From the NCBI GenBank assembly GCA_003696675.1, contig RFGH01000057.1, forward strand, positions 49,243 to 113,242: DNA of 64,000 nucleotides, in the 5' to 3' direction. Every line of letters begins with the position of its first letter. The stretch's first letter is position 1. Position numbers and translations under genes: made by a program. Shown here piece by piece: positions 3,637 to 18,326 of this stretch. Under the pieces are notes generated by a model that worked only from the letters and a program-made list of their open reading frames with translations, made no database searches and had not been told where the DNA came from. This DNA is from Planctomycetota bacterium. GTDB lineage: Bacteria > Planctomycetota > Phycisphaerae > Phycisphaerales > UBA1924.

Positions 3637-3664
<28 letters not shown>

Positions 3665-4602
3665 ACCCGCTTCCCAGGCAGAACGACCGGCGCCGTCGTG
3701 GCGAGGGCGGCGTCGACGGCCGGGCTCTGCGGGCGTCCGGCGGTCATGCGTGCCCGGACGTCATCGATCAATGCCGCGACCTCCGCGCGAGTGAGCTTGG
3801 CACCCGGCCCACGCTCGCCCACCAAAGAGAGCGTGTCGACGGCGAGCCGCAGGTTGATCGCATTGAACGCGATGACACCCGGGGCAGCCCCAGCGGACTC
3901 GAGCACGCGGACATAGTCCGCGGCCGATGCGAGATCGGCCCATGCCATCCTTTCGATCTCTCCGCGAGATACATCGCAGGGCAGGTACTTTCGATTGGCC
4001 ATGGCATCTTCGTGCTCGTCCCGGAGGATGTTGACGAGCTGGAGACCCTCGCCAAATGCGGGGGCGAGCCGGAGCAGCTCGCTCCTTGCCGAGGACAGCC
4101 GGCCCGCTACGGCTACGAAGAGCTCTGTCAGGAGTTCGCCGACGATCCCCGCGACCGCGTAGCAGTACGAACGAAGGGCCGAAACCCCCGACGGCGCCTC
4201 GGCCGACTCCAGATGGTCACGCATACCGCCGCAGGTACGTGCCAGGTGGGACGCGATCGTTTCCCGCGACTCGCTGTCGAGCGATTCAAAGGACGAGAGC
4301 ACAAGCGGAGCATGCTCTAGCAGCCGGGCGTACCCGGGCACTTTCACGGCACCATCAAGTACTTTGGTGGCGTCGTCCAGCAGCGTTCGCAACGCCGCGC
4401 CGTCGCTTGCTTTCTCCGAGAATTGAGAGAGCAGTGCCGCACGGCTCGCGGCATCCACGCCGGTCTCATCCTCGATCGTGTCCGCGATCCGGAACAGCAG
4501 GTAGGCCACACCGACCCGCTCCCGCAGCGGCGACTCGAGGAACGGGATCGACAGCGCGAAGGTCCGGCTTGTTTCCTGCAGCAGCGAATCGATCGTGATC
4601 AT
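3637..4602 (-). CDS. Squalene/phytoene synthase family protein (CrtB/CrtM-like)
   Basis: SRTFALSIPFLESPLRERVGVAYLLFRIADTIEDE (DxxxD-type motif) and LVNILRDEHEDA second Asp-rich motif. Confidence 0.85.
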
Positions 4603-6212
4603 CGCAGTCCCCCAACCGCCGCGCTCTCCGGGGGGTTGACCGTCGGGCGGAACCGGGTGGGATCGCCGCGGGACAGGTCAGGGGGTGAAACGCCGAGTTG
4701 CTCGCAAAGCATGGATGCGGTGATCTGTGCCGAAAGGAAGATCACCGGCAGCCCGGACCCCGGGTGCGTCCCGCCCCCCACCAGCCAGGCCCCTTCGCAG
4801 TACGGCAGGCGGTGCTGCGGACGCTTGTGAAGCATCTGGTCCAGCGAATGGGCTAGGTTGAACGTCGCCCCGTGATTGATGTTCATGCCCCGCCAATCGT
4901 CCGGGCTCAGACGGAGCTCGGCGCGGATCCTGTCCCGGAGATCGACTCCCAGAACCGATCGCATCCGGTCGAGAAGGAGCTCTCTGACCCGCGGCATCTC
5001 GGCGGACCAGTCGATCTTCGCTTTGCCGTTGGGCGTGGGCAGAAGGACATACAGGGCACTGTCACCGGACGGTGCGAGCGTCGAGTCGGTGCGGCTCGGG
5101 TTGCACACATAGAAGCTCGGATCATCGGTCAGCGTTCCGGCGGCCCCGTTTTTTCTCGAGATGTCCTCTAGATTCTGCTCGTACGCGGGCGCGGTCCGGA
5201 TGGTGTGATGGGGCAGATCCACAGGCCCATCGACACCGAGGTACAGCATCGCCGTTGAGCACGAGTACTTCTTCCGATCGAACGCCTCATCGCTGTCGCG
5301 GCCCCTCCACGCTTGGGGGATGAACCGCTTGATCGCCCAGGACGCGTCGGCGTTGATCACCGCGTGATCGCAGGCAACGACCTCACCGTCGCGCCGGCCG
5401 CCCAGCCGGAGCCCACGCACCCGCTTGCCGTTGTACTCGATGCCCTCGACCGGCACGCCGGTCTCGATCCGTCCGCCGGCATCGATGAAGGCCGCCGCAA
5501 GGGCGTGCATCAGCGCATTGCATCCGCCGATCGGATGCCAGACGCCATACTCGTATTCGATGTACGGGAGAATGGTGAAGAGGCTGGGGCACTCCATGGG
5601 GCTCATCCCGAGGTATTTGCTCTGGAATCCCACCGCCAATCGCACCGCCGGATGCTCGAAGTACCGGCTGTTCATGTCATGGACAGTAAGGTGTGGATTG
5701 ATGTAGGGCAGCGCCTTCATGGCGTCCGCCCTGAGAAGATCCAGAGGACCCCGGATCGCGCGGCGCAGGATCGGCTCCGCGGCGTCGAGCTTCTTCTGAT
5801 TGTGCCTGTAAAATGACCGGAACGCACGCCCGTCTGGAGCATGGATCGCGCCAATCCGCTCCGCCATGCGGTCGATGTCTTGCGTGGTATCGATCACCAC
5901 ATCAGCCGCATCCGGGCGTCCGATGACGAGGCGGTACATGGGGTCCAGCCGCCGAAGATCCACCTCGTCGGTCAGGGTTCGCCCGACCGATCCGAAGATC
6001 TCGTCGAGCACGTGCGGCATGAGAAAGAACGTAGGGCCGCGATCGAAGTGGTACTGACCGAGCGAGATGCGGGCGGTCCTTCCACCGATCGTCGGCTGCG
6101 CCTCGTAGACCGTGACATCCAGCCCCCGTGATGCCAGGAGCACGGCGGCGGCGAGCCCTCCCGGTCCGGCCCCCACCACCGCGATCTTCGCGTTCGTGCC
6201 GTCCTGTACCAA
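4599..6212 (-). CDS. Phytoene desaturase family FAD-dependent oxidoreductase (CrtI/CrtN/CrtP-like)
   Basis: KIAVVGAGPGGLAAAVLLASRGLDVTVYEAQPTIGGRTARI dinucleotide-binding N-terminus; C-terminal LVGGGTHPGSGLPVIFLSAQITASML typical of carotenoid desaturases. Start uncertain (TTG at 6212 with GGGAG upstream, or ATG at 6275). Confidence 0.88.
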   Translation of the reverse strand: MVQDGTNAKIAVVGAGPGGLAAAVLLASRGLDVTVYEAQPTIGGRTARISLGQYHFDRGPTFFLMPHVLDEIFGSVGRTLTDEVDLRRLDPMYRLVIGRPDAADVVIDTTQDIDRMAERIGAIHAPDGRAFRSFYRHNQKKLDAAEPILRRAIRGPLDLLRADAMKALPYINPHLTVHDMNSRYFEHPAVRLAVGFQSKYLGMSPMECPSLFTILPYIEYEYGVWHPIGGCNALMHALAAAFIDAGGRIETGVPVEGIEYNGKRVRGLRLGGRRDGEVVACDHAVINADASWAIKRFIPQAWRGRDSDEAFDRKKYSCSTAMLYLGVDGPVDLPHHTIRTAPAYEQNLEDISRKNGAAGTLTDDPSFYVCNPSRTDSTLAPSGDSALYVLLPTPNGKAKIDWSAEMPRVRELLLDRMRSVLGVDLRDRIRAELRLSPDDWRGMNINHGATFNLAHSLDQMLHKRPQHRLPYCEGAWLVGGGTHPGSGLPVIFLSAQITASMLCEQLGVSPPDLSRGDPTRFRPTVNPPESAAVGGLR

Positions 6213-6327
6213 AGCGAATCTCCCAACCCTCGGCCGACGCTGGTAGCGTATCGGGTGTCGGGCTGGGTTCGGCATGTGTCCGCACCCGGATTCGCCCCAT
6301 CCGGGGTCGCCCCGAGGAGGCTCACGC

Positions 6328-7638
6328 GTGTTGGTGCCCCATCCCGAAGATCTCGCCTGGGTACGCAAGTTCAGGAAACGCCTTGCGAGCGAGATCCCTA
6401 CCGTGTGCCGCTTTGTTCAAGAGGAGCTGGGGCGGGGATCATTCGAGACCTTGACAGCCGATATCGTGCCGCTGCTATCGGCCTGCGTTTGGACCGAGCG
6501 GCATGCCCGCCGGCTCCTTCGTGCCCGCTCGGTGCCGGGAAAATCAATCTGGCAACTGGGTCAGCGCCATCGCGTCATCCGGGTACCTCTGGGACATGTC
6601 GGCATCATCGCGACATGGAACTATCCAGTCCAACTCCTTGGTATCCAGCTGATGCACGCGATCGCCGCGGGCAACCGCGTCACTGTCAAGCCGAGTGAGC
6701 GAACCCCCCGGACCCAGGGGTTTCTACTTCAGGTGGCGCGGGATGCGGGTCTCCCAGAATCGAGACTGAACTGGACCCGGTCAGATAGAGATGCAGGCGA
6801 AGCAATGCTCCGTGACTTGCGGTTCGACCATGTTGTCTTCACGGGTTCGACCAAGACAGGCCGACAAATCGCGGAATGTCTCGCCAAGTCCTTGACACCA
6901 AGTACATTAGAACTATCGGGGTGCGACAGCGCCATCGTCATGGACGAGGCTGATCTCCGCTTGGCGGCCCGTTCGATCGGCTTCGCTGTAATGCTGAACG
7001 CTGGCCAGACATGCATGGCCCCGCGCCGGGTGCTTCTCCCTGCACACCGTGCTGAACCTTTCGTAGCCGAGCTTTGCAAGTTCTTGTCAAATAGCCGCTT
7101 GAGCACATCGATCGACACCCCCGCTGCGACCGCTGCGGCACGAGCAGTTCTTGCGGCCGAGAAAGAAGGTGCGACGCGGCGGTTCGGGGATGCAGGTGCA
7201 GGCCAGTGGCCTGTGGTCGTTTCTGACTGCACGCCAACATGCGATTTGGTCCGACAGGAGCACTTTGCTCCTGTTCTGGCTATTGTGCCCACGGACTCGG
7301 ATGAAGAGTCCTTCCAGATCCACGCGCAGATTTCGCAGCGGTTGGCGACAAGTGTGTTCGTCGGAACTCGGGGGGATGAGTCAGCGATCGCGGCACGGCT
7401 GGGTTCGACGGTCGTCACATTCAATGATTGTGTGATCCCGACAGGACACCCCGGTGTCTCCATCGGGGGCATCGGGGCCAGCGGTTGGGGCTTGTCGCGG
7501 GGCGCAGTCGGCCTGTTGAGCATGACCCGCCCGGTGTTTGTTGCTCGCACATCCGCACGGATACGCACACCACTTGATCCACCGACGAAAAAGGTGGCGG
7601 CCAAAGCGGAGTCTTTTGTCCGCTGGTGGTATAGTTGA
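6328..7638 (+). CDS. Aldehyde dehydrogenase family protein (carotenoid aldehyde dehydrogenase-like)
   Basis: GTG start preceded by GAGGAGG; ATWNYPVQL, FTGSTKTGRQIA, LELSG, and catalytic-Cys region NAGQTCMAPRRVL. Confidence 0.85.
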   Translation: MLVPHPEDLAWVRKFRKRLASEIPTVCRFVQEELGRGSFETLTADIVPLLSACVWTERHARRLLRARSVPGKSIWQLGQRHRVIRVPLGHVGIIATWNYPVQLLGIQLMHAIAAGNRVTVKPSERTPRTQGFLLQVARDAGLPESRLNWTRSDRDAGEAMLRDLRFDHVVFTGSTKTGRQIAECLAKSLTPSTLELSGCDSAIVMDEADLRLAARSIGFAVMLNAGQTCMAPRRVLLPAHRAEPFVAELCKFLSNSRLSTSIDTPAATAAARAVLAAEKEGATRRFGDAGAGQWPVVVSDCTPTCDLVRQEHFAPVLAIVPTDSDEESFQIHAQISQRLATSVFVGTRGDESAIAARLGSTVVTFNDCVIPTGHPGVSIGGIGASGWGLSRGAVGLLSMTRPVFVARTSARIRTPLDPPTKKVAAKAESFVRWWYS

Positions 7639-7747: not shown

Positions 7748-9343
7748 ATGCATGTAGTCGTAATCGGCGGTGGTTTGGCGGGACTGGCTTCGGCGGTCGA
7801 ACTGCGAAACCGTGGCGCCGATGTCACGCTGATCGAAGCGAACACGCACCTTGGCGGCAAGATGAATGTGCTGTCGGAAGCCGGGTTTACTTTCGACATG
7901 GGGCCGACCATTCTGACGCTACCGGAAGTGCTGTGCGGGATCATCCGTCGCTCGGGGCGGCGCGTGGAAGACCTGATCGATCTGGTCCGTCTTGATCCTC
8001 AATGGAGGTGCCACTATGAGGATGGGACAGTCTTGGATCTCAAGGACGGCGTCGACGAGATGGCCACCTACCTTGACGAGGTGTTCCAGGGATCGGGCGC
8101 GGGCGCCGAGTTTCGTTCGTTTCTGGCCTACGCCAGACGGATGAACCGTCTCAGCCGTTCTGTATTCTTCTACCGCGATCTTGGCAATGTCATGGATGTG
8201 ATCCGCGCCTCGCCAAAGAGCGACCCCGCAGTGATGTGGGACGCCATGGCGATGCGGCTCCACTCCACAGTTGCCGCTACGGTCGCCAAGCACATCCACG
8301 ATCCCCGTGTTCGCCAGCTCGTCGAGCACTTCCTTCAGTATGTCGGTTCCAGCCCGTTCCTTGCCCCTGCAATCCTGACCATGATCGCCAGTGTTCAGCT
8401 CGATCAGGGCTGCTGGTACGCCATGGGGGGGACCCGCATGGTGGCTCGAGCCCTCGAACGACTCGCGAGAGAATCGGGTGTCGACTGCAGAACCGGTGTG
8501 CGTGTGAGCTCCATCCTGCACACAAATGGGCGAGCGACCGGCGTACGGCTTGAAAGCGGCGAGGAGATCTGCGCTGACGCCGTAGTGTCGAACTGTGATG
8601 TGCAACGGACCCTTACCAATCTGATCGATACCCCCGCAGCACACCACGAGCGTCGTTCAATCGCGAGAAAGTACACACCCGCTTGTTCCGGAGTGGTCCT
8701 GTATCTGGGACTGAATCGTCAATACGATCACCTCGCCCATCACAACTTCATCTTCAGTCAGGATTCTCACGAGGAGTTCGACGATATTTACAAAAGGGGG
8801 ATCCCCGCACGCGATCCTACGCTGTACATTGCCGCTCCGAGCCGCACCGACCCGGATCAGGCCCCTTCCGGGTGCGAAGCCCTTTACATCTTGGTGCACA
8901 CACCCTACATCCGGGAGGGATCGATCCAGTCGCGACAAGACGAGTTCATTCGGGCCTACCGCCCGGTCATCATGGAAAAGTTGTCTCGGTTCGGGATGGC
9001 GGATATTCAAGACCACATTGTGGTCGAAAGGTCCCTCCTGCCACGCGGGATCGAAAGGATGTACAACGCAGAAGGCGGCGCGATCTATGGGCTCACCAGC
9101 CACGGCAGGCTGCACGGCGGATTCAAGCCAAGAAACACTTCGCAGGCTCTTGAACGCCTGTATTTGGCCGGCGGCAGTGTGAATCCGGGACCCGGCGTAC
9201 CGATGGTGCTCATGAGCGGTGTCACTGCCGCGGATGCAGTGGCCCGTGATCTGGGGTTAGAGCGGCCGAATCTCCAAGCTACAAGTGCCCCGCCCGGCAC
9301 TGGTGAGTTCCGGTTCGTCGAAGAAACCGCTGCCGTCGGATGA
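7748..9343 (+). CDS. Phytoene desaturase family FAD-dependent oxidoreductase (CrtI/CrtN-like)
   Basis: MHVVVIGGGLAGLASAVELRNRGADVTLIEANTHLGGKMN; C-terminal LYLAGGSVNPGPGVPMVLMSGVTAAD. Confidence 0.9.
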   Translation: MHVVVIGGGLAGLASAVELRNRGADVTLIEANTHLGGKMNVLSEAGFTFDMGPTILTLPEVLCGIIRRSGRRVEDLIDLVRLDPQWRCHYEDGTVLDLKDGVDEMATYLDEVFQGSGAGAEFRSFLAYARRMNRLSRSVFFYRDLGNVMDVIRASPKSDPAVMWDAMAMRLHSTVAATVAKHIHDPRVRQLVEHFLQYVGSSPFLAPAILTMIASVQLDQGCWYAMGGTRMVARALERLARESGVDCRTGVRVSSILHTNGRATGVRLESGEEICADAVVSNCDVQRTLTNLIDTPAAHHERRSIARKYTPACSGVVLYLGLNRQYDHLAHHNFIFSQDSHEEFDDIYKRGIPARDPTLYIAAPSRTDPDQAPSGCEALYILVHTPYIREGSIQSRQDEFIRAYRPVIMEKLSRFGMADIQDHIVVERSLLPRGIERMYNAEGGAIYGLTSHGRLHGGFKPRNTSQALERLYLAGGSVNPGPGVPMVLMSGVTAADAVARDLGLERPNLQATSAPPGTGEFRFVEETAAVG

Positions 9344-10125
9344 GTGGATGTCTCGCGCCAGCCCGGCCTTCGACGCGTTTCCGCCAAATGTTTGGCTGGT
9401 ACACCACGCGACTCATCAAAAAACGCTTCAACGCGCTTCGAGTAGAGCGCAAGTCCATCGAGATCCTCAACAGCCTCAGAGATGACAAGGGCCCGATCCT
9501 CCTCGCGATGAACCACGCGTCCTGGTGGGATCCACTCATCGGGCTCGTGCTCTGCGAGCGATTTCTTCCATATCACACTGGGTCTGCTCCGATGGACATG
9601 GAGCAGTGGAAGACATTTCGCTTCATGCGCAGGCTGGGCCTGTTTGGACTCGATCCGGGCCACCCTGATGCACTCCGTGAGATGGTCGATCATGTGAGTG
9701 GCCTCGTCGAGGCTAGGCCTCGCACGGTCTTTGTCATCACTCCGCAAGGGGCATTTACGGATGTCCGAACCCCGATCCGAGTACGCCCTGGCCTTGCAAC
9801 ACTGGCAACCCGTTTGCCGCACGCGAAGTTATACTCCGTCGCCTGCGAGTACGCATTCTGGACGGATCAGCGGCCCGAGGTGTTTCTGCGTGTAACACAG
9901 GTACAGCGTCCGGTGGTATCGACCATCCCAGGCTGGCAAAGGGCGATCAAAAGAGGCATGCAGCAAAACCAAGATGAGCTTGGGGGACTGGTCGTGAAGA
10001 GAGATCCAGATGCGTTTGACCTTCTCGTCGCCTGCAGTGGATCCAGAGTCAATCCAGCGTACGACCTAATGGCCAAGATCAGAGGTCGATCAACCGTAGT
10101 CCGATCAAGGGAACATACCGCTTGA
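9340..10125 (+). CDS. Lysophospholipid acyltransferase (PlsC) family protein
   Basis: NHASWWDP (HxxxxD motif); 4-nt overlap with the upstream desaturase and the downstream glycosyltransferase. Confidence 0.78.
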   Translation: MSGCLAPARPSTRFRQMFGWYTTRLIKKRFNALRVERKSIEILNSLRDDKGPILLAMNHASWWDPLIGLVLCERFLPYHTGSAPMDMEQWKTFRFMRRLGLFGLDPGHPDALREMVDHVSGLVEARPRTVFVITPQGAFTDVRTPIRVRPGLATLATRLPHAKLYSVACEYAFWTDQRPEVFLRVTQVQRPVVSTIPGWQRAIKRGMQQNQDELGGLVVKRDPDAFDLLVACSGSRVNPAYDLMAKIRGRSTVVRSREHTA

Positions 10126-11798
10126 CTCCTCTTGCCCTGTTGATGGTGTTCGCACTTTTGATCGCCTGCGGTGCGCTTGCGATGACGGCCTGGAATCTTC
10201 GGGTCTACAGAGCACCCCGGTCTGATGGTGCGGTCGACGGTGAACTGGTTTCCGTCTGCATCCCAGCGAGGAACGAAGAGCACAACATCGAGGCATGCCT
10301 CCGCTCCGTGCTGCGATCGGTGCATCCCATCGAAGTGCTTGTTTACGACGACGAAAGCACGGACGCAACCCCGGTCATCTTGGCGCGGCTCATACAGGAA
10401 GATACGCGGATCCGACAAGTTCCCACAGTTCCCTTGCCGGAGGGGTGGTCCGGCAAGCAGCACGCGTGCGATCGAATGGGCCGCGCGGCCGCCGGGAAGT
10501 GGGTGCTTTTCATCGATGCCGATGTCCGGTTCGAGCCAGATGCAGTGGCCTGCGCTGTGGACTTCGCCCGCGTGAGCGGTTGTTCATTGGTGTCTACCTT
10601 TCCGAGGCAGATATGCGGCACCTTCGGTGAGCTGCTCCAGGTTCCGATGATATTCTTCATCCTCTTTAGCTATCTGCCCTTCGGGCGGATGCGCAGAACT
10701 ACGCAGCCATCTGCGAGCGCGGCATGCGGGCAGTTCATCCTCGCCGATCGAGAGGCCTATCTGAATATCGGTGGCCACGCGGCATTCAAGGACTCCATGC
10801 ACGATGGTGTTCGCATGCCACGAGCTTTCCGCAAGAAGGGGTACCGCACCGATCTCTTCGATGGCACCCGCCTTGTTTCTGTCAGGATGTACCAAGGCTT
10901 CGCCCAGTCCTGGAGAGGATTCGCGAAGAACGCGTACGAGGGGCTCGGATCGGTTTCTCTCTTAGTGTTCCTGACAGTCATGCATGCCGTTGGCCATGCG
11001 AGCGCGTGGGTCGTTATGCCGATCGCCTTCGCCGCCGGTGACCCACTCGCAGGAACGCTTGGGCTCGTGTCAATGGGCGCCAATGTCACGCAACGAGCAG
11101 CACTATGCAAACGGTTTGAACACCCGCTCTGGCTGGCGTTACTCCATCCGGTCTCCGTGCTGCTCATGACGGCGGTCCAGTGGGACAGCCTCCGAATCCA
11201 TCTCCGCCGGGGCCGCACATGGAGGGGACGATCGCTCGGGCAGAGCGGTTCGGAGCGTGTTGTGCTAGTCGATGAGCTGGATCGCGAACTTGGCACAGCT
11301 GAGAAGATTCAAGCACATCGGAACGGGGGCTGCCTCCACCGCGCATTCAGCGTTTTCCTCTTCGACGGACAGGGCCGACTGCTGCTGCAGCGTCGAGCAG
11401 CCGGGAAATATCACTTCGGCGGGCTGTGGACAAATACCTGCTGCAGCCATCCCCGTCCCGGTGAGTTGCCAATGAATGCGGCTCGACGCCGACTCGGAGA
11501 AGAGATGGGCATCGATGTGGAGCTCCACCCCGCGGGCACCTTCGTGTATGAAGCCCACGACCCTAGCTCGGGATTGACAGAGCGAGAGCTCGACCATGTT
11601 CTTGTCGGTCGCTTCGACGGCTCCCCAAGCCCAAACCCCGACGAGGTTTGTGACTGGCGTTGGATCTCGTTTGATGATCTGGACGCCGAACTCCGGGCGG
11701 TGCCCGATGAGTTCACTCCCTGGTTTCGACCCGCATGGGAGAAGGCCCGCCCGATGCTCGATGCAGCGGGACTGTTCAGCCCAGTGCCCGCCCGATGA
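10122..11798 (+). CDS. Fusion: family 2 glycosyltransferase (CrtQ-like, N-terminal) + type 1 isopentenyl-diphosphate delta-isomerase (C-terminal)
   Basis: N-terminal VSVCIPARNEEHNIEACLRSVL, FIDADVRFEP, TM segments; C-terminal Nudix IDI domain: YHFGGLWTNTCCSHPRPGE, AARRRLGEEMGI, ERELDHVLVGRFDG. Single uninterrupted frame; domain boundary about residue 375. Confidence 0.88.
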   Translation: MTPLALLMVFALLIACGALAMTAWNLRVYRAPRSDGAVDGELVSVCIPARNEEHNIEACLRSVLRSVHPIEVLVYDDESTDATPVILARLIQEDTRIRQVPTVPLPEGWSGKQHACDRMGRAAAGKWVLFIDADVRFEPDAVACAVDFARVSGCSLVSTFPRQICGTFGELLQVPMIFFILFSYLPFGRMRRTTQPSASAACGQFILADREAYLNIGGHAAFKDSMHDGVRMPRAFRKKGYRTDLFDGTRLVSVRMYQGFAQSWRGFAKNAYEGLGSVSLLVFLTVMHAVGHASAWVVMPIAFAAGDPLAGTLGLVSMGANVTQRAALCKRFEHPLWLALLHPVSVLLMTAVQWDSLRIHLRRGRTWRGRSLGQSGSERVVLVDELDRELGTAEKIQAHRNGGCLHRAFSVFLFDGQGRLLLQRRAAGKYHFGGLWTNTCCSHPRPGELPMNAARRRLGEEMGIDVELHPAGTFVYEAHDPSSGLTERELDHVLVGRFDGSPSPNPDEVCDWRWISFDDLDAELRAVPDEFTPWFRPAWEKARPMLDAAGLFSPVPAR

Positions 11799-14142: not shown

Positions 14143-15597
14143 TCAGCTCCGGCGACGCTGTTCGAGCCGGACAAGGAAGTGCGCCATAATCCGCTCGTAG
14201 AGCGCATCTCCTAAAATCCGGTCTTCAACACCCGCATCGATGTTTGGATTGTCGTTGATCTCGATGACCCTCGGCTTGCCGTCGATGACCTTGATGTCCA
14301 CGCCGTAGAGTCCGTCGCCGATCTGCTTGGCCGCCCGTACGCCAACCTTCACCACCGCGGCCGGGACCTGGCTGACTGGCACGGTCTCAAAGCCGCCGCT
14401 GGAGACGCGCGATCCTTGGCGATTGACGATCTGCCAATGCTTGCGAGCCATGAAATACTTGGACGCGTACAGGGGCTGCCCCCCGAGCACGCCGATCCGC
14501 CAGTCAAACTCGGTGGGAACAAACTCTTGGGCGATCAGCAGTTCTGAGGTGTCGAGCAACTCATCGAGACGACGGTAAAACTCCTCCTCGGTATCGATTT
14601 TGATCACTCCGGCCGAAAATGAGCTGTCGGGCTGTTTGATGACCGCCGGGAACCCGATGCGCTCCGCGACAAGTCCGGCCGTGTCCTCGCCGAAGATCAC
14701 CGTCTTGGGCGTCGGAATCTTGTGCCGGATCATCATCTCGGCCTGATACACCTTGTTGGTGCACCGCACGATCGAGACGGGGTCATCGATCACGACCATG
14801 CCTTCCGCGGCCGCTCTGCGGGCCATACGGTAGGTGTAGTGATCCACGGCCGTGGTATCCCGGATGAAGAGGGCGTCGTACTCGGCGACTCGCCCGGCAT
14901 CGTCTTTGGTGATCAACTCCGCCCGGATGCCCATCGACTCGCCCGCCGCAATGAACTTCTTCAGGGCTTTCTGATCCGAGCAGGGCATCGGATCGTCCGG
15001 TTTGTGCAAGATCGCCATGTCGAATCGCGACGGCGTCTTCGGCTTGCTCGTTCGAACGCCACGGGTGATGTATCGCTCGGCCTGCTCCGCGACATAGGCC
15101 GTCTCGTTGTCCGGAACCTCGCCTGCCGGGACAATGCGAACGGAATCAATGGTCCACCCGCTCTCATTCACAAAGGTCACACGAAGCAGCGGGGCCGGAA
15201 ATACATTGAAGAGAGCACGGGCCAACTGGCGGTGCTTTTCGTAGTACGAAGAGCCGAAATAAATCCAGAGCTCGAAGTCTGCGGCCTTGACTCCTTTGAG
15301 ACTCTTGTTGATCAGACCATCGAGAGACGATTCGGCCAGCCGATGGATCGGCGCGAGTTGAAGATCACGGAGCGTGGTCACCGTCGGCAGCGGCTTGTGC
15401 CCCCGCGCCTCTGCGAGAAGTGAGACATAATAACCAGCGGTCTGATATCCGTACGATCGGCAGAGATTGCATACTTTCAGGTTCGCGGCGGCACCGAACT
15501 TTGGGTCGGCGAGGTAGTCCCGTGCGGCCACGATCTCCGCGCCGGGAATCTTCAACGGCCAGCGCTTCGGATTGCTGACGACCACGATCGTGTTCAA
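14143..15597 (-). CDS. RimK-type ATP-grasp ligase with RLAN-like N-terminal domain
   Basis: N-terminal LKVCNLCRSYGYQTAGYYVSLLAEARGHKPLPTV matches the RLAN (RimK-like ATP-grasp N-terminal) pattern as recalled; C-terminal ATP-grasp IEINDNPNIDAGVED. Confidence 0.83.
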   Translation of the reverse strand: MNTIVVVSNPKRWPLKIPGAEIVAARDYLADPKFGAAANLKVCNLCRSYGYQTAGYYVSLLAEARGHKPLPTVTTLRDLQLAPIHRLAESSLDGLINKSLKGVKAADFELWIYFGSSYYEKHRQLARALFNVFPAPLLRVTFVNESGWTIDSVRIVPAGEVPDNETAYVAEQAERYITRGVRTSKPKTPSRFDMAILHKPDDPMPCSDQKALKKFIAAGESMGIRAELITKDDAGRVAEYDALFIRDTTAVDHYTYRMARRAAAEGMVVIDDPVSIVRCTNKVYQAEMMIRHKIPTPKTVIFGEDTAGLVAERIGFPAVIKQPDSSFSAGVIKIDTEEEFYRRLDELLDTSELLIAQEFVPTEFDWRIGVLGGQPLYASKYFMARKHWQIVNRQGSRVSSGGFETVPVSQVPAAVVKVGVRAAKQIGDGLYGVDIKVIDGKPRVIEINDNPNIDAGVEDRILGDALYERIMAHFLVRLEQRRRS

Positions 15598-16445
15598 GGC
15601 ATATTCCCCGATTTCTTGCCCTTCATCCCGCTCTTTTCGAGTGAAGGCAGAGCGCCGAGTGTCTTCGGCTCGATGACCAGCAGATTCGCGTCGTAGGTGA
15701 GCACTCCCAGATAGATCGAACCCAGCAAACGCGGCATGTCTACCTCATACCGACGGGATGCGAAAGCAGGATTGTTCTCGAGCGGATCGGCGATCTGGAC
15801 CTTGCGTGTGCCCCCATCGTACCCGCACACGACCACGAAGTGCCCCCCGGGCACGCCCCGCACATCGTCCTCGTCATCCAGCGGAGGAACTTCGCGGGGG
15901 GCTCGATAGAGGTAGGTCGAACTCAGCCCGGTCAGAATCGGCAGACCCTTCCGGAGGAACGAGTGGATGAGCTGCGCCGAGACATCTTGCATGAAGATCT
16001 CGCCGCCCGCCTCGAGAAACTCCAGATACGCCTGAGTCGCCAGCTCATACTTCAGTTCCACCTTCTCCAGTGCAGCGGCCTGCTGTCGCAGTTTATTCGA
16101 GATCAACTGTGGGTCGCCCGGCTTTGATCCGTCCGCGGGGAACCAGGTCGGATCGAACATGTGCAGGTTGAAGGTGATCAGCCTCGCGCGATAGCCTCTC
16201 ATCAAAGCGTGGAGTCCGAGCCAGGGAGCCAGCGTTCCACGCCCGGCCTCGACACCCAGCATCTTCATGGTATCGATCACTGATTCGAGCGAAACGCTCT
16301 CGCCGTAGTAGCGATATACACTGTGCAGGCAGGTCGGGCCGCAGGTCTGGTCGTCGGGCTGCGCGTGAATGTGAAATGGAAGCTGTGCGGCGTCTTCGAT
16401 CAACTCTGCGGCTCCTCGGCATGCGTTCGGATCAGACGATGCCAC
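15594..16445 (-). CDS. C39/papain-like cysteine peptidase-fold protein
   Basis: DDQTCGPTCLHSVYRYYG (QxxCGxxC catalytic region), GGHFVVVCGYD (His) and IADPLENN (Asp). 4-nt overlap with the ATP-grasp gene. Confidence 0.78.
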   Translation of the reverse strand: MASSDPNACRGAAELIEDAAQLPFHIHAQPDDQTCGPTCLHSVYRYYGESVSLESVIDTMKMLGVEAGRGTLAPWLGLHALMRGYRARLITFNLHMFDPTWFPADGSKPGDPQLISNKLRQQAAALEKVELKYELATQAYLEFLEAGGEIFMQDVSAQLIHSFLRKGLPILTGLSSTYLYRAPREVPPLDDEDDVRGVPGGHFVVVCGYDGGTRKVQIADPLENNPAFASRRYEVDMPRLLGSIYLGVLTYDANLLVIEPKTLGALPSLEKSGMKGKKSGNMP

Positions 16446-16484
16446 TCCCCAACCGCTATCACTCTAGACAACGGCCTGTGAAAC

Positions 16485-18326
16485 TCAAACCGCGGCCTCA
16501 AGCCCACAATCGGCCGGATCATGCCTGGCCATGCCCCCCCACCACCGCTCACCCCACATAGCGATATTGATCATCGGCCAGGAAAGATTCCAGAGGGCCT
16601 CGGGCGCGGCGGAGACGGTCTGCACGGCTTCGGTAGTAAAAATCTCGCGGGCAAGGTGGCTCGTACGCAATACCGAACTCATCCCGCCAGCCCACTGCTG
16701 GAAAGGCAACGGGAAGCTCGCCTTGGGGCGAGCGAGGATGCCGATAGGCAGGTCGCCCGAGAATGCCCGTCGGAGGGCGATCTTTGTCTGCTCCGGCGCG
16801 TCCCCGGCATACTTCATGCACATCGGCATGCTCTCGGCCAGCCGGGCAACCGCGAAGTCGGCGAATGGCGTCCGACCCTCGACCGAGGCTAGCATCGTGG
16901 CCGAATCCAGCCGACGCAGCAGGTTGGGCAGGTTCATGCGCCGATGGAAGCGAAGATGCGGCTCCAGCCTATCCAAGCCGTCGCACGCGATCCGAAGCTC
17001 CTCGAACTCCTCCGTGTAGAAGGCACGCAAAGCCTCATCGCGGCCGCTGGAATTCCAAGCCCGATCCCTCAGCACTCTCGACTTGATACCCATGGGAACC
17101 CATGCATTCGAGTCGAGATGGAAGAGGCCGCCCGTGATGTCCTTGGCGCCTGCCAATGCGGCGACATGATCAGCGGCCTGACGCATCGCGGGGGCATACC
17201 CACCAAATAGTTCGTCAGCACCCTCTCCGGAAATGGTCACTACATGCCCGTCCGCACGCAGAGATGCCGCGACCTCATAGATCGCGACCTCGTTCGGAGT
17301 AGACAGAGGAACGCCGGAGCGATCGATCATCCAGTGCCATCGATCGAGAAACCCATCCCTTGTGACTTCAATCTCTTCATGATGGGTGCCAAGACACTCC
17401 GCCATGGCTCGTGCATGCTGGAAGTCGTCGTCCATACCGGGCACTCGCGCGCCGGCGCAATAGGTCATGAGTTTCGGGACATGACGATTGGCAACACTCG
17501 TGATGATGGCGCTATCGAGCCCGCCGGACAAGAGTGCGCAGATCGGCACATCCGTTCTCAGGTGCCGGATGATGGAGTCTTCGACGACATCACGAACTTC
17601 ACCCCCTGCATCCTCTGCAGCTGCGGACGATTCGGACCAGATGTTTCGCATATCTGGCTGCGAGTCCGATCTGGCTGAGTAAATCCGTATCTCGCCGGGA
17701 AGCAGCGTCTCGATGCCCTCGAACAGTGTCCTGTGACCAAGCGTGGGCCGCAGTGTCGTCAGGTACGCAGAAACAGTCACAAGATCCGGCGTACACCGTG
17801 CATCGGGGTGGGCAAGGACAGCCGCGAGGTCGCTCGCAAACACCAAGCACGACCCTGCTGGCCCGGCGACTCTTGCCGCATACAGCGGCTTGATGCCCAG
17901 CGGATCACGGGCGAGCAGCACGCGATGTTCATCACGATCAACGAATCCGATCGCGAACATCCCGCGGAACTTGGAGATCGCTCTCTCACCCCAAACCGCC
18001 AGAGCGAGCAGCACGGTCTCCGTGTCGCAGTCTGTACGGAACCTGATGCCCTCAGACTCCAGCTCGCCCCGAAGCTCAGCGTCGTTGTATAGCTCCCCGT
18101 TGTATGTCAGGGCGAATCGCCCATCGGGTGTTGTCATCGGCTGGTGACCCTCGGGCCCGGGCGCGATGACCGCCAATCGACGGTGTCCGAGCACCGCCCA
18201 CGGGCAACGCCAGAGTCCGGCCCCGTCGGGACCACGATGGAACATAGTGTCGCGCATCCGTGCGGCATCCAGATCGGTCAGACCGATCGGACCACCCAGC
18301 CCGATGACACCCAGAATGCCGCACAT
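16485..18326 (-). CDS. Glutamine-hydrolysing asparagine synthetase family protein (AsnB-like)
   Basis: MCGILGVIG (N-terminal nucleophile Cys2), HRGPDGAG, and ALLSGGLDSAII PP-loop. Confidence 0.92.
   Translation of the reverse strand: MCGILGVIGLGGPIGLTDLDAARMRDTMFHRGPDGAGLWRCPWAVLGHRRLAVIAPGPEGHQPMTTPDGRFALTYNGELYNDAELRGELESEGIRFRTDCDTETVLLALAVWGERAISKFRGMFAIGFVDRDEHRVLLARDPLGIKPLYAARVAGPAGSCLVFASDLAAVLAHPDARCTPDLVTVSAYLTTLRPTLGHRTLFEGIETLLPGEIRIYSARSDSQPDMRNIWSESSAAAEDAGGEVRDVVEDSIIRHLRTDVPICALLSGGLDSAIITSVANRHVPKLMTYCAGARVPGMDDDFQHARAMAECLGTHHEEIEVTRDGFLDRWHWMIDRSGVPLSTPNEVAIYEVAASLRADGHVVTISGEGADELFGGYAPAMRQAADHVAALAGAKDITGGLFHLDSNAWVPMGIKSRVLRDRAWNSSGRDEALRAFYTEEFEELRIACDGLDRLEPHLRFHRRMNLPNLLRRLDSATMLASVEGRTPFADFAVARLAESMPMCMKYAGDAPEQTKIALRRAFSGDLPIGILARPKASFPLPFQQWAGGMSSVLRTSHLAREIFTTEAVQTVSAAPEALWNLSWPMINIAMWGERWWGGMARHDPADCGLEAAV

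Follow-up and report, generated by a model that had tools for sequence, protein, structure and literature searches.

The window analyzed here, a 64,000-nucleotide stretch of a 3.28 Mb, 243-contig Phycisphaerales MAG, raises the question of whether a membrane glycosyltransferase (GT) and an isopentenyl diphosphate isomerase (IDI) are made as one polypeptide, and what such a protein would do. The gene concerned was found to be a single uninterrupted open reading frame on the plus strand (10122–11798), running from TTG at 10122 to TGA at 11798 and encoding 558 amino acids; Pfam, NCBIfam, frame analysis, and a structure model all contributed to its annotation. Its TTG start overlaps the TGA of the upstream acyltransferase gene (TTGA), and the sequence AAGGGAA is located at 10107–10113, 8 nt before this start. 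The product consists of a membrane GT2 domain (residues ∼1–371), a linker of about seven residues, and a complete type 1 IDI (residues ∼379–548). At the junction, both alternative frames contain stops and the frame of the fusion is the sole open one, so no hidden frameshift is needed to account for it. A preliminary description had proposed that both domains lie in one continuous frame, and had named a masked stop or frameshift near the junction as the event that could undo this proposal. No such event was found: the frame is open throughout, both domains are significant, and independent genomes share the fusion, which together with the closed alternative frames rules out a hidden frameshift or stop. 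The fusion is thus confirmed.

The N-terminal part (residues 1–371; 10122–11234, plus strand) was assigned to GT2 from Pfam PF00535 (residues 44–213, 5e-23, 82 bits), alignment A1, the structure model, and a Foldseek search, in which it matched the mannosyltransferase PcManGT (6yv7) and, more weakly, hyaluronan and cellulose synthases. It contains a GT-A domain with DD and DxD motifs, and the elements conserved in its clade in alignment A1 are DD.STD (YDDESTD), DADVR, DSMHDG, and a terminal W[RK]GR. The DSMHDG element (window residues ∼225–230) is invariant in all loci of the alignment and occupies the place where many GT2 proteins have the ED catalytic-base motif. The nearest curated NCBIfam models are HpnB and CruG, and the GT part scored far below the cut-offs of both (153.7 bits vs. 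379 and 130 vs. 600, respectively), so the substrate of the GT is judged from its context. The genes for CrtN, CrtP, AldH, and an acyltransferase lie alongside, which is the location of a C30 carotenoid GT in the role of CrtQ or META1p3663, and by this analogy the enzyme probably glycosylates a C30 carotenoid.

The C-terminal part (residues ∼379–548 and a short tail; 11256–11798, plus strand) is a type 1 IDI of the Nudix family. Pfam NUDIX was detected at residues 406–535 (6e-25), and the NCBIfam model TIGR02150 (type 1 IDI) gave 141.2 bits against a cut-off of 105.8, covering model positions 1–156 of 159. The domain aligns end to end with solved Salmonella and E. coli IDI structures (including 3hyq; PDB entries 1i9a and 3hyq were used for the annotation), and every catalytic residue is kept, including the catalytic Cys, the Glu pair, the His metal ligands, and the Trp. 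In E. coli numbering, the aligned positions are the counterparts of His25, His32, Cys67, His69, Tyr104, Glu114, Glu116, and Trp161. In Foldseek, the part superposes on E. coli IDI with a target TM of 0.86. The NTCCSHP and ERELDH motifs that had been reported for this part are both present, and the domain is full, as had also been claimed, although the fold ends near residue 548 rather than at 558 and the last ∼10 residues form a low-confidence tail. Between the IDI parts of the window and of its congener L027, there are 30 synonymous and 16 replacement differences.

We also examined the IDI complement of these genomes. The fused type 1 IDI is the only type 1 IDI in the genome of the window and the sole IDI found there; no type 2 IDI scored above the cut-off among 130 genomes of the family, and the type 1 model was matched in only 17 of the 398 genomes of the class. 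The window's genome also encodes IspH of the MEP pathway and two polyprenyl synthases (prenyltransferases). Because IspH yields both IPP and DMAPP, the IDI would serve to adjust the IPP:DMAPP ratio and would not be essential. The earlier view of the IDI as the first step of isoprenoid supply therefore needs qualifying: with IspH present, it is not strictly the first step in this organism.

The AlphaFold model of the fusion, built from 33 aligned sequences, had a mean pLDDT of 92.1 and a pTM of 0.74, and both domains were confident; pLDDT fell below 50 only at residues 371–375, within the linker, and in the last three residues. Helices were modeled at residues 3–28, 278–304, 308–331, and 336–363. 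A literal reading of the three helices after the GT domain as three membrane spans would place the IDI outside. However, the hydrophobicity of helix 308–331 is low (mean 0.43), and a segment rich in Arg closes the last helix ahead of the IDI, both of which favor a position inside. Since the substrates of IDI are cytosolic, we infer that the domain lies on the cytosolic side.

The fused gene is the last gene of a translationally coupled operon, and this operon is divergent from crtN and a squalene-synthase-like gene. On the minus strand lie the squalene/dehydrosqualene-synthase-like gene (crtM or sqs; 3637–4602; PF00494), which reached 95.8 bits of the 286.75 set as the TIGR01559 cut-off, and a divergent CrtN-like desaturase gene (4599–6368; TIGR02734, 417 bits), the true start of which is probably inside the open reading frame. 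These are followed on the plus strand by an aldehyde dehydrogenase gene in the AldH position (6274–7638; PF00171, 2.5e-70), a CrtI/CrtN-family oxidoreductase gene in the CrtP position (7748–9343; TIGR02734; 58–77% identity in related clusters), an acyltransferase gene in a CrtO/META1p3664-like role (9340–10125; PF01553), which adjoins the GT gene in related loci, and the fused gene. Overlaps of 4 nt join the CrtP-like and acyltransferase genes, the acyltransferase and fused genes, and crtM and crtN. The crtM/sqs-like gene is the only SQS_PSY gene of the window's genome, and its product would make squalene or dehydrosqualene. By analogy, the locus is a predicted glyco-carotenoid cluster for a glycosylated and acylated C30 pigment of the staphyloxanthin/Methylobacterium kind. 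Profile matches and gene neighborhood thus bear out the two domain identities and the carotenoid context of the preliminary description. Elsewhere in the window, a minus-strand run at 14143–18326 was seen by eye only to contain RimK/ATP-grasp ligase-like, C39-type peptidase-like, and asparagine-synthase-like amidotransferase genes.

Taken together, we consider it likely that the protein is a bifunctional membrane enzyme, with a GT acting on a C30 acid and an IDI, through which expression of the pigment operon is tied to the IPP/DMAPP balance. The GT2 domain would glycosylate a C30 diapocarotenoic acid at its carboxyl end, and the neighboring acyltransferase would then acylate the sugar; on the cytosolic side, the IDI would interconvert IPP and DMAPP. 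The two active sites belong to opposite ends of the pathway, so direct channeling between them is unlikely. The probable benefit is instead a fixed co-production, in which the DMAPP supply would rise along with translation of the operon, near the membrane at which squalene or dehydrosqualene is made.

An alternative is that the gene yields two products, the fusion and a free soluble IDI initiated internally at the fusion point, from an ATG in some relatives and from a GTG in the window. The linker concerned (around residues 370–378; 11229–11255, plus strand) has low model confidence and coincides with the point where unfused relatives terminate. An in-frame GTG at 11262–11264 (plus strand) with GGAG at 11252–11255, 6 nt upstream, had been proposed as an internal start; both elements exist, but the site is not conserved. 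Its energy of pairing with the anti-SD is −6.6, just within the ∼5% tail (−6.5) of in-frame start codons within GT parts. In the 11 fused frames inspected, W[KR]GR[T] is closely followed by an ATG in five cases and by a TTG in one; an AGGA-like stretch lies upstream, the duplex energies range from −5.2 to −7.7, and the reduced locus of genome G452 keeps the ATG, although the N-terminal part of its GT is gone. However, unfused GTs, in which there is no IDI to be initiated, have SD-like stretches of the same strength (e.g., −8.1 in L029 and −11.5 in L038), so this strength stems from the codons of the conserved W[KR]GR element. Moreover, the ATG is missing in the window, L025, L027, L047, L096, and L097, the GTG equivalent scores well elsewhere in L026 only, and the ATG or TTG of the relatives looks like the old idi start, of which it may be a mere relic. 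A free IDI is possible in some species, and GTG 11262 may likewise be used in the window, but we regard such a dual product as rather unlikely overall.

Another alternative is that the IDI domain is a sensor or scaffold that binds IPP/DMAPP and modulates the GT, catalysis being secondary. The catalytic steps of the GT and the IDI are far apart in the pathway, and simple channeling therefore fails to explain their pairing, which would suit such a role; nevertheless, with all catalytic residues of the IDI kept and no other IDI found in the genome, this explanation appears highly improbable beside a bifunctional enzyme.

To determine the distribution of the fusion, GTDB genomes and 301 genomes of the order were scanned; most of the genomes compared were MAGs. 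The fusion was detected in 12 genomes at 53–66% identity, in nine of them as one intact frame: G000 (the window), G542, G032, G534, G550, G576, G624, G625, G452, G078, G408, and the MAG behind L047. Judged on the length and position of the open reading frames, loci L023–L028 belong to the same genomes as some of this set. Most of the fused genomes belong to a single family of Phycisphaerales; two come from another family, and one is a MAG labeled Proteobacteria, which reflects either transfer beyond Planctomycetota or mis-binning. In this MAG (L047/L190/L191) and in G542, the fusion is split by contig ends; in the former, the broken ends share a 195-bp overlap that is 98.5% identical, and in the latter, the missing IDI end lies at the end of a different contig, next to the peroxiredoxin gene that also neighbors it in the window. 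The contig downstream of the fusion in the Proteobacteria-labeled MAG carries, by eye, TPR, cupin, carboxymuconolactone-decarboxylase-like, and ECF-sigma-like genes. In G452, most of the cluster and the N-terminal part of the GT are lost; this locus (L133, L098) has a crtN remnant of ∼100 aa and lacks the aldehyde dehydrogenase, crtP, and acyltransferase genes, and the frame of the GT C-terminal part and IDI and the crtM-like gene are open. Two further long frames considered as other IDI fusions were rejected: L076 (586 aa) has no second NCBIfam domain and a CrtN-like frame lies antisense to it, and L058 (386 aa) likewise lacks a second NCBIfam domain, so that both look like mere long open frames.

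The GT occurs unfused in about 100 other genomes of the order (about 47–60% identity). These unfused GTs terminate at W[RK]GR followed by a short tail, precisely at the point at which the linker begins in the fused proteins, which indicates that the GT and the IDI were both complete when they were joined. No IDI match at E ≤ 1e-8 was found near an unfused GT in the locus DNA compared, and the relatives had either the fusion or a GT without an IDI nearby, never the adjacent separate gt and idi genes that would have spoken against the fusion. The source genome is a MAG of many contigs, but an assembly or sequencing artefact joining two genes is refuted and practically excluded, because the same junction recurs, with linkers of differing length (2 to over 30 residues), in independent assemblies that include the single-contig genome G032.

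We next compared fused and unfused clusters. A squalene-synthase-like gene was present in all 11 fused genomes tested and adjoined crtN wherever the cluster was read, and none of the 37 unfused family relatives with a clear GT orthologue had such a gene in the cluster. Instead, 36 of these 37 had two or three SQS_PSY genes; these usually form an HpnC/HpnD-like pair of adjacent genes elsewhere in the genome. The remaining relative, a fragmented MAG, had a single SQS_PSY gene of the HpnC/HpnD type. The association between the fusion and the in-cluster synthase gave a Fisher p of 4e-11, a value that overstates the independent evidence because the test takes no account of the kinship among the genomes. 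The exclusive pairing of the fusion with the one-step synthase gene, and not with HpnC/HpnD-like pairs, suggests two alternative C30 carotenoid cassettes in Phycisphaerales.

Fused and unfused forms coexist within genera: in genus g1, the window and G542 have the fusion but G345 does not, and in genus g2 it is found in G032 and G534 but not in five other genomes. In the congener G345, inspected for a clean empty insertion site, lig-cyth is present, with no prx within 8 kb. The fused clusters of G078 and G408, from the other family, show 53% (GT) and 63–68% (crtP) identity to the window, and the unfused clusters of their own family (G053, G390) are less close (40–43% and 46–50%); this similarity points to a transfer of the whole cassette between families. 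A single fused clade was rejected by neither tree (p-AU 0.338 for GT and 0.214 for IDI), which is consistent with one origin but does not demonstrate it, and the fused sequences are scattered in the best IDI tree. The fusion probably originated when a gt-idi gene pair lost its intervening stop in a cluster equipped with a one-step C30 synthase of its own; this cluster would afterwards have moved between families. A bolder and doubtful reading is a bacterial carotenoid metabolon, in which the last tailoring enzyme would hold IDI at the membrane and thereby make the supply of DMAPP there respond to assembly of the pathway; the fusion would have evolved together with a self-contained C30 cassette that moves horizontally and relies on a one-step synthase in place of HpnCDE.

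No GT–IDI fusion was found in the open-access literature searched, in agreement with the initial impression that none had been described; the fusion is conserved and apparently undescribed, a new pairing of domains from enzyme families that are both known, within a pathway of known type. In two bacterial families, it places on one polypeptide the step that balances the precursors of a pigment pathway and a final step that decorates the pigment. Compared with E. coli Idi (TIGR02150), the fused IDI shares the full domain, all catalytic residues, and the fold, but the type 1 IDIs of the solved cases are free and soluble, whereas this one is tethered to a membrane GT. The gene set and step order (CrtN, CrtP, AldH, GT, acyltransferase) are those of staphyloxanthin crtOPQMN and of Methylobacterium extorquens AM1 (META1p3663 GT, META1p3664 acyltransferase, and crtP), in which deletion and complementation proved that the GT and a lysophospholipid acyltransferase complete a C30 diacid pigment (PMC10448405); in these systems, however, the GT stands alone without an IDI. 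In the same phylum, Planctopirus limnophila makes C30 carotenoids from squalene via HpnCDE (as cited in PMC12078418 and PMC10448405); the unfused relatives have HpnC/HpnD-like pairs, and the fused clusters have a single squalene-synthase-like gene instead. The nearest known fusion is the IDI–squalene synthase of the diatom Phaeodactylum, PtIDISQS (PMC12168105), likewise a natural fusion of IDI to a later enzyme of the C30 pathway. PtIDISQS is eukaryotic and its partner is squalene synthase, whereas here the partner is a GT and the squalene-synthase-like gene is separate in the cluster; as a parallel to it, the GT–IDI fusion would represent a natural case of supply–demand coupling in isoprenoid metabolism.
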